64,000 nucleotides of DNA from Bacteroidota bacterium (GTDB lineage Bacteria; Bacteroidota; Bacteroidia; Bacteroidales; UBA4417): NCBI GenBank assembly GCA_022711175.1, contig JAKLFM010000012.1:1-64000 (forward strand). Reading direction: 5' to 3'. The notes under the pieces were generated by a model. That model saw only the letters and a list, made by a program, of their open reading frames with translations, did no database searches and was not told the origin of the DNA. Made by a program: the position numbers and the translations under genes. Positions 56,530 through 58,177 of this stretch are shown piece after piece. Position 1 is the first letter of the stretch. Every line of letters starts with the position of its first letter.

Positions 56530-56556
56530 TTATCCAGATTTCGAAAAAAGGTAATA
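56530..56556 (-). promoter_or_regulatory. Bipartite ECF-type promoter motif in front of the sigma gene
   Basis: On the minus strand TATTACC (56556-56550) and TGGATAA (56536-56530) are 13 bases apart. The motif ends 12 bases before the sigma gene ATG. It is repeated on the plus strand at 56747-56773 with exactly the same spacing. Confidence 0.8.
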
Positions 56557-56746
56557 CCATTTTGTGATTTTTTTTTAGTTTTTTCCATTGCGCCTAAATG
56601 ATTGAAAATCAAGATCATCGCGAACTTATTAACAAAAACATCACTAATGTTAATAACCTTCAACAAAATTGGTAATATTTTCTCACTAAAATCCTTTTTT
56701 GAGTGCTTAACGAGAGTGATTTAGGTTAAAAAATGTCATGATGTGC

Positions 56747-56773
56747 TATTACCTTTTTATTACAGGTGGATAA
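56747..56773 (+). promoter_or_regulatory. Bipartite ECF-type promoter motif in front of the T9SS dockerin gene
   Basis: TATTACC (56747-56753) and TGGATAA (56767-56773), 13 bases apart, are identical in sequence and spacing to the minus-strand motif at 56530-56556. Both halves follow one strand direction, towards the dockerin gene. Confidence 0.8.
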
Positions 56774-56959: not shown

Positions 56960-58177
56960 ATGAAAAAGATTTACTTCACTCTGCTTGTTTCCTTTTTGAT
57001 TATTACCGGAACAGCATCAGCAACCAACATCAGCGGTACAATGCTTTACCTCAACAATCCGGAATACTATCTGCCCGGAGTGGTTGTAAGCCTCAAAGCA
57101 CTTCCTAACGGAACAACTACTACCTGTATAACCGACAGCCTTGGCCATTATAGTTTCACAAATGTTGCGGCTGGCAGTTACAGACTGTCTGCCTCAACCG
57201 ATATGAGCGGATACCAAATCGGGTGGGAATCGGCCTGGATGGTACTTGCCTACCTGTGCGGACAAACCCAGCTAACCCCAATACAGTTTTTGGCTGCGGA
57301 TGTTAATGGAAATGGTAAGGTAAAACTAAATGACCTGGCTCTGATCATCAATCACTTGTTGTTTGGAGCTCCTTTTCCTGTTGGTGAATGGGTTTTTGAA
57401 TCATACGATTTTACTGTCAACGGAAGTAAAGATCAGCCGGGTGGTATGAGCGGCGCTTCGGCCGGCGACTTAACCGGCGTATTTATACCAACATCACGCT
57501 CACTGGAAGCATTCCCTGTGGAACATAATACTCAGGTTGCCGCTTCGGCTGACGAAGAGTTTACTCTTGACCTCGTGACCCGCGAAAATCTTAGCCTTAC
57601 TGCCGCCGGGCTTACCTTTAACTTTCCGGCAGAACTCGTAAATATTGAATCAGCCGAATTTGCAACCAGTGACTATCAGTATGTTGTTGAAGGGAATCAG
57701 CTTAAACTTGTCTGGTACGGCAGCAACGAATCACCGCTCGAACTCGAAGCCGGTTCAAAACTGGCCACTTTGCATTGCCGCGCAACATCTGCATTCGGCC
57801 CCGGCTCCCAGGTGAATATTGAGATGGATAACAACTCGAGCCTCGCAGGAGCCAATTTCACAAAGATCACAGGCGCTAAACTCACTATTCCGGCGATTAC
57901 TTATGCCGTTCCAAGTCTCCGAATCAGTAATTATCCCAATCCATGTGTGGGATCAACCACCCTTAATTATTACCAGCCCGAGGACGGAAAAACCACTCTA
58001 AGAATCTTCTCTTACAACGGTCAACTCGTTCATTCAATGCCATTATCAGGCAGCAAAGGTTACCATCAGGTTGAAATTGATGCTACACGCTGGCAGCCAG
58101 GAAATTATATCTGCAAAATTCAATGTGATGGCATTCAGAAATATAGCGAGTCTCACATCATTATCAAGACCAACTAA
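56960..58177 (+). CDS. T9SS-secreted protein with dockerin-like and cohesin-like modules
   Basis: The 405-residue protein has a signal peptide (MKKIYFTLLVSFLIITGTAS), a carboxypeptidase-regulatory-like domain (about 25-95; ITDSLGHYSFTNVAAGSYRL), and a dockerin-type loop DVNGNGKVKLNDLALIINHL (about 113-132) with Ca-binding positions D-x-N-G-N-G-x-V-x-x-x-D. A beta domain (about 190-315) resembles a cohesin fold (AGLTFNFPAELVNIESAEF). The end is a T9SS sorting domain (RISNYPNPCVGSTTLNYY to IIIKTN). So it is exported across the outer membrane. ATG 56960 is preferred because the residues from 56927 precede the signal peptide. It is followed by a terminator. Confidence 0.85.
   Translation: MKKIYFTLLVSFLIITGTASATNISGTMLYLNNPEYYLPGVVVSLKALPNGTTTTCITDSLGHYSFTNVAAGSYRLSASTDMSGYQIGWESAWMVLAYLCGQTQLTPIQFLAADVNGNGKVKLNDLALIINHLLFGAPFPVGEWVFESYDFTVNGSKDQPGGMSGASAGDLTGVFIPTSRSLEAFPVEHNTQVAASADEEFTLDLVTRENLSLTAAGLTFNFPAELVNIESAEFATSDYQYVVEGNQLKLVWYGSNESPLELEAGSKLATLHCRATSAFGPGSQVNIEMDNNSSLAGANFTKITGAKLTIPAITYAVPSLRISNYPNPCVGSTTLNYYQPEDGKTTLRIFSYNGQLVHSMPLSGSKGYHQVEIDATRWQPGNYICKIQCDGIQKYSESHIIIKTN

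Follow-up and report, generated by a model that had tools for sequence, protein, structure and literature searches.

Two copies of a bipartite motif, TATTACC-N13-TGGATAA, lie between the gene for an ECF sigma factor and a divergent gene for a secreted protein. Both copies are, with high probability, −35/−10 promoters read by that same sigma factor, which would then be autoregulated and would control both transcripts. Such was the original prediction, made from the 64-kb stretch of DNA considered here (the window). Computation alone now gives it strong support: the motif is conserved in front of orthologous sigma genes; the divergent copy recurs, and its core bases change together with those of the first copy; and the motif is linked to one clade of sigma factors.

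Table 1. Features of the sigma locus, in window coordinates
Feature	Position	Strand	Remarks
Putative anti-sigma factor, 249 aa	55184..55933	-	Helical cytoplasmic N-terminus, one transmembrane segment, TPR repeats
ECF sigma factor, 192 aa	55939..56517	-	Region 2 in Pfam; sigma70-ECF in NCBIfam
Predicted promoter copy 1, TATTACCTTTTTTCGAAATCTGGATAA	56530..56556	-	12 nt 5' of the sigma ATG
Lone TATTACC	56671..56677	-	Lacks conservation; not taken as a site
Predicted promoter copy 2, TATTACCTTTTTATTACAGGTGGATAA	56747..56773	+	186 nt 5' of the T9SS/dockerin ATG (56960)
Secreted protein	56960..58177	+	Carboxypeptidase-regulatory-like, dockerin I and T9SS type A sorting domains
TPR-CHAT caspase-like protein, 1113 aa	58292..61633	+	Presumed second gene of the divergent transcript

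Both copies lie at the positions and on the strands first assigned to them, and the spacer is 13 in each. No other exact match occurs in the window, as originally claimed, and the statement extends to the whole 3.61 Mb genome: with spacers of 12 to 14 allowed, the only two exact copies are those at the sigma locus. A first-order Markov model predicts about 0.0005 matches in 64 kb and 0.08 per genome (spacer 12–14); 100 shuffles of the window yielded none, and the reversed pattern, used as a control, was absent from the 3.61 Mb genome. A relaxed scan (up to three mismatches) was swamped by chance, with 540 matches versus 372 in the control. Alignment of the intergenic region from 12 genomes of the genus reveals two peaks of conservation, which are the two motifs. 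The lone TATTACC between them, once suggested as a further site, has no −10 half, is missing in 11 aligned relatives, and has been dropped.

The spacing is that of an ECF promoter: 16 nt separate TTAC from GATA, as is usual for such promoters. A T-tract follows the −35 half. The leader predicted from copy 1 is only about 3–6 nt long.

The adjacent gene encodes an ECF (group IV) sigma factor: it has regions 2 and 4 only, and scores above the cut-offs for PF04542 (35.5 bits; cut-off 24) and TIGR02937 (58.9 bits; cut-off 42.9). The top Foldseek match is sigma-E (1or7_A), with regions 2 and 4 matched separately. The source genome also carries a paralogous ECF sigma gene (L172:7751-8320; G000:C205), about 50% identical and without the motif. 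No TPR partner was recognised directly beside this paralogue before the contig ends, and some of its relatives have a housekeeping-like AACCTTTGC just 5' of the start. The two sigma factors could share targets.

Conservation was evaluated with sigma orthologues drawn from 16 genomes of the genus plus a genome collection. Among orthologues of at least 54% identity, all 32 distinct upstream sequences contain the motif, matching it at 15–17 of the 17 core bases, and the spacer is always exactly 13; as far as sequence evidence goes, this marks the site as an autoregulatory promoter. The consensus among relatives is GTATTACCTTTTT-N8-(T/C)GGATAA, again with a fixed spacer, and the sigma-gene sites carry about 49 bits of information across 37 columns. 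The gap between motif and sigma ATG is 10–13 nt in all but one of the 32. The exception is L083, with a gap of only 4 nt, where the message would be leaderless. In other Bacteroidales families, sigma genes with the motif were found down to 44% identity, and one further sigma clade has a degenerate form, GGTTACCTTTTT. A paralogous sigma clade of 46–52% identity, to which the gene on C205 of the source genome belongs, lacks the motif, matching only 7–12 of the 17 core bases. In four loci (L147, L154, L158, and L160) the sigma-TPR operon is tandemly duplicated, and the −35 half of the second copy is the variant TATCACC.

The second copy of the motif faces the dockerin/CHAT operon in most of the loci that have this operon. 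Within the genus, the distance between the two copies is mostly about 190–205 nt. When 800-nt stretches are shuffled, a chance match to 15 or more of the 17 core bases turns up in 0.06% of them. Several orthologous loci (L073, L075, and L079) lack a good divergent copy with a spacer of 13 in the 800 nt searched.

The two copies also vary together. In 31 two-copy loci, core-base agreement within a locus is 0.928, versus 0.903 when copies are re-paired, and none of 10,000 permutations reached as high a value. Spacer sequences, which serve as a control for mere relatedness, show no within-locus link in the same 31 loci (p 0.46). Specific variants are shared: the two copies of L084 both have CTGATTA, as do those of L087, and the two copies of L247 both have GTATTA. 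Core changes that are common to both copies, with spacers that are not, are expected if one protein reads both sites.

The motif goes with this sigma clade, in the sigma tree and also in a set of 393 genomes of the order. Within the genus, a refined motif was found in 13 of 16 genomes (36 matches, versus none in the reversed control). Two of the motif-free genomes, G006 and G014, lack both the sigma and the dockerin genes of this locus. Counting the third, G003, as sigma-free was rejected: its contig C9 starts within the dockerin gene, which leaves the locus incompletely assembled. Across the order, the strict motif occurs in 12 of the 393 genomes, and in 11 of these 12 a sigma orthologue with 57% identity or more is present; the one remaining match, in G062, sits inside an ORF. 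The association has a Fisher p of 2e-16, which is only nominal because the genomes are related. On the sigma tree, the motif label requires 3 changes, versus 17.8 in shuffles.

Could a different sigma factor read these promoters? ECF cascades exist, and the close paralogue on C205, or another ECF factor controlling this one, might be the reader. This is improbable, since the motif hardly occurs outside genomes that have this sigma locus, its presence follows this sigma factor's own tree, and changes in one copy of a locus are matched in the other; moreover, G014 has the paralogue and lacks the motif. A still smaller probability attaches to the idea that the 27-base element is an operator, bound by an activator or a repressor and overlapping the promoter. 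Bipartite elements can indeed be operators, and conservation by itself does not prove a promoter. However, the two halves have no symmetry, the 13-base spacer is rigid, the element keeps one orientation towards the gene, and the TTAC-N16-GATA spacing is typical of ECF promoters; nor did the conserved locus show a transcription factor gene.

The short distance between the sigma copy and the ATG, 4–13 nt, would also suit a translation or RNA element, with the divergent copy a coincidence. This is the least probable reading, and very nearly negligible: divergent copies are improbable by chance, and the element is also located some 190 nt upstream of the divergent gene, 41–53 nt from the start of a response regulator gene, and some 70 nt upstream of a DUF5916 gene. 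Together, the conservation, the co-variation, and the linkage to one sigma clade strongly support the autoregulated promoter.

Additional targets were predicted by running a profile of the sigma-gene sites (model R1) over the genomes of the genus. The clearest is a gene for a receiver-only response regulator located between rpoD and pyrG. The motif lies 41–53 nt upstream in 9 of 13 such loci, and these sites score 15–32 bits, compared with at most 8 among 800 shuffled stretches; the other 4 genes of the 13 lack it. The source genome is among the nine (site C168:10838-10864; gene L164:7396-7785, G000:C168). In five genomes, not including the source genome, the motif precedes a gene for a CBM9/DUF5916 protein. 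It also precedes a hybrid histidine kinase gene in G007 (L151:9978-10004) and a second TPR gene in G002. A half-decayed motif is present in G008 (L215:819-840), where the hybrid histidine kinase gene is absent from the corresponding place. A site of doubtful significance in the source genome, C190:60076-60106, scores 22.7 bits against the profile and lies more than 700 nt 5' of the nearest plausible gene on its strand, a small lipoprotein gene.

The sigma factor's operon partner, in the loci examined, is a TPR membrane protein. This protein is probably an anti-sigma factor. The role of brake is suggested by its place in the operon, by its helical cytoplasmic N-terminus, and by a natural fusion: in one lineage, the sigma factor and the TPR protein are joined in frame as a single 448-aa ORF (L163:3146-4492, on the contig of L085 in G055). 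An AlphaFold model of this fusion shows four confident helices (pLDDT about 90). The anti-sigma-like region is not confidently placed on the sigma domains in the fusion models (pTM 0.56 and 0.52). The N-terminal region of the TPR protein has no meaningful Pfam match up to an E-value of 10, and Foldseek searches with the fusion models returned TPR proteins and then sigma factors, with no anti-sigma chain among the matches listed. Given the low pTM and the lack of an anti-sigma family match, the anti-sigma role is one that we infer.

The CHAT protein encoded by the divergent operon has a lipoprotein-type N-terminus, a His936/Cys983 dyad, and a C-terminal hydrophobic helix. Its CHAT domain (PF12770) scores 202 bits. 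Among 25 CHAT proteins compared, the His and Cys motifs are invariant in all, and most share the lipoprotein-type N-terminus and the C-terminal hydrophobic helix. Having both the domain and the catalytic His and Cys, the protein is a putative peptidase. A MutS2-like gene lies 3' of the CHAT gene, and the gene order of the locus recurs in relatives. The locus is also present in MAGs of Lentimicrobium.

These observations suggest a regulatory circuit. The TPR membrane protein would hold the sigma factor at the inner membrane. Once free, the sigma factor would transcribe its own operon (sigma factor and TPR membrane protein) as well as the divergent T9SS/dockerin and CHAT genes; starting both transcripts would constitute positive feedback. 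It would also read the receiver-only response regulator gene beside rpoD. Release might come from the periplasm-facing, caspase-like CHAT protein, or a partner, cleaving or binding the TPR protein. That the CHAT protein activates the sigma factor by acting on the TPR protein is drawn from analogy with Csx29, and is a tentative suggestion.

It is likewise possible, if rather doubtful, that the locus represents a Bacteroidales-wide module: a TPR membrane anti-sigma factor of an undescribed class; the ECF sigma factor that it would restrain; and, facing the periplasm, a TPR-CHAT protease of the same regulon that would cleave the anti-sigma factor. The module would be an envelope counterpart of the CRISPR-associated CASP system, with a dedicated promoter code and the receiver-only response regulator beside rpoD as a further target. 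Searches of the open-licence literature turned up no description of the promoter code or of the module. The results provide a concrete promoter code for a Bacteroidales ECF sigma clade, along with a few candidate regulon genes open to direct testing.

An ECF factor that is autoregulated and paired with a membrane anti-sigma factor is a familiar kind of system. As in the sigma-E/RseA and SigW/RsiW pairs, the sigma gene here would drive its own operon, and the next gene encodes a single-pass membrane protein; the sigma domains match those of sigma-E and SigW, and the core halves are likewise 16 nt apart. Unlike these pairs, the locus has other bases at −35 and −10, a TPR sensor domain, and no recognised anti-sigma domain family. 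The predicted promoter does not show the −35 AAC and −10 CGT boxes of the AAC/CGT type of ECF promoter, its consensus being TTACC(T)n and GGATAA. Most ECF promoters have a CGT box at −10, to which the −10 half here is dissimilar. The SM6 promoters of Flavobacterium psychrophilum have a conserved CGT box at −10 (PMC9723704), whereas the motif here has GGATAA. In one survey, just 6% of the ECF factors in Bacteroidetes had a class I anti-sigma domain encoded next to them (PMC7406223); the TPR membrane protein may represent one of the missing classes.

Other known systems share different parts of the locus. In Porphyromonas gingivalis, SigP/PorXY also ties an ECF sigma factor to T9SS genes or cargo, and PorA, a T9SS-sorted surface protein, feeds back on the pathway (PMC7712824). 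ECF54 genes are reported to have CHAT, subtilase, and carboxypeptidase genes nearby, and control by proteolysis has been proposed (PMC8999054); by its description, that group resembles the present locus in its neighbouring CHAT gene. ECF54 was proposed to act without an anti-sigma factor (PMC8999054), whereas a probable one is present in the operon here.

A parallel to the CHAT arrangement comes from type III-E CRISPR systems, in which Csx29 cleaves the sigma inhibitor Csx30 (PMC10028731). No Cas7-11 gene was seen among the ORFs at 50–64 kb of the window. As in the CASP module (Csx29, a TPR-CHAT protein; Csx30; and CASP-sigma), a TPR-CHAT protein, a putative sigma inhibitor, and an ECF sigma factor are encoded together, and predicted sigma-dependent motifs lie within the locus (PMC10028731). 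The lipoprotein-type N-terminus and the C-terminal hydrophobic helix set the CHAT protein here apart from its CASP counterpart, and cleavage by it is hypothetical. The linked CHAT gene may mark an envelope relative of the CRISPR-associated protease and sigma factor module, and offers a setting in which to test the role of CHAT proteins in bacteria.
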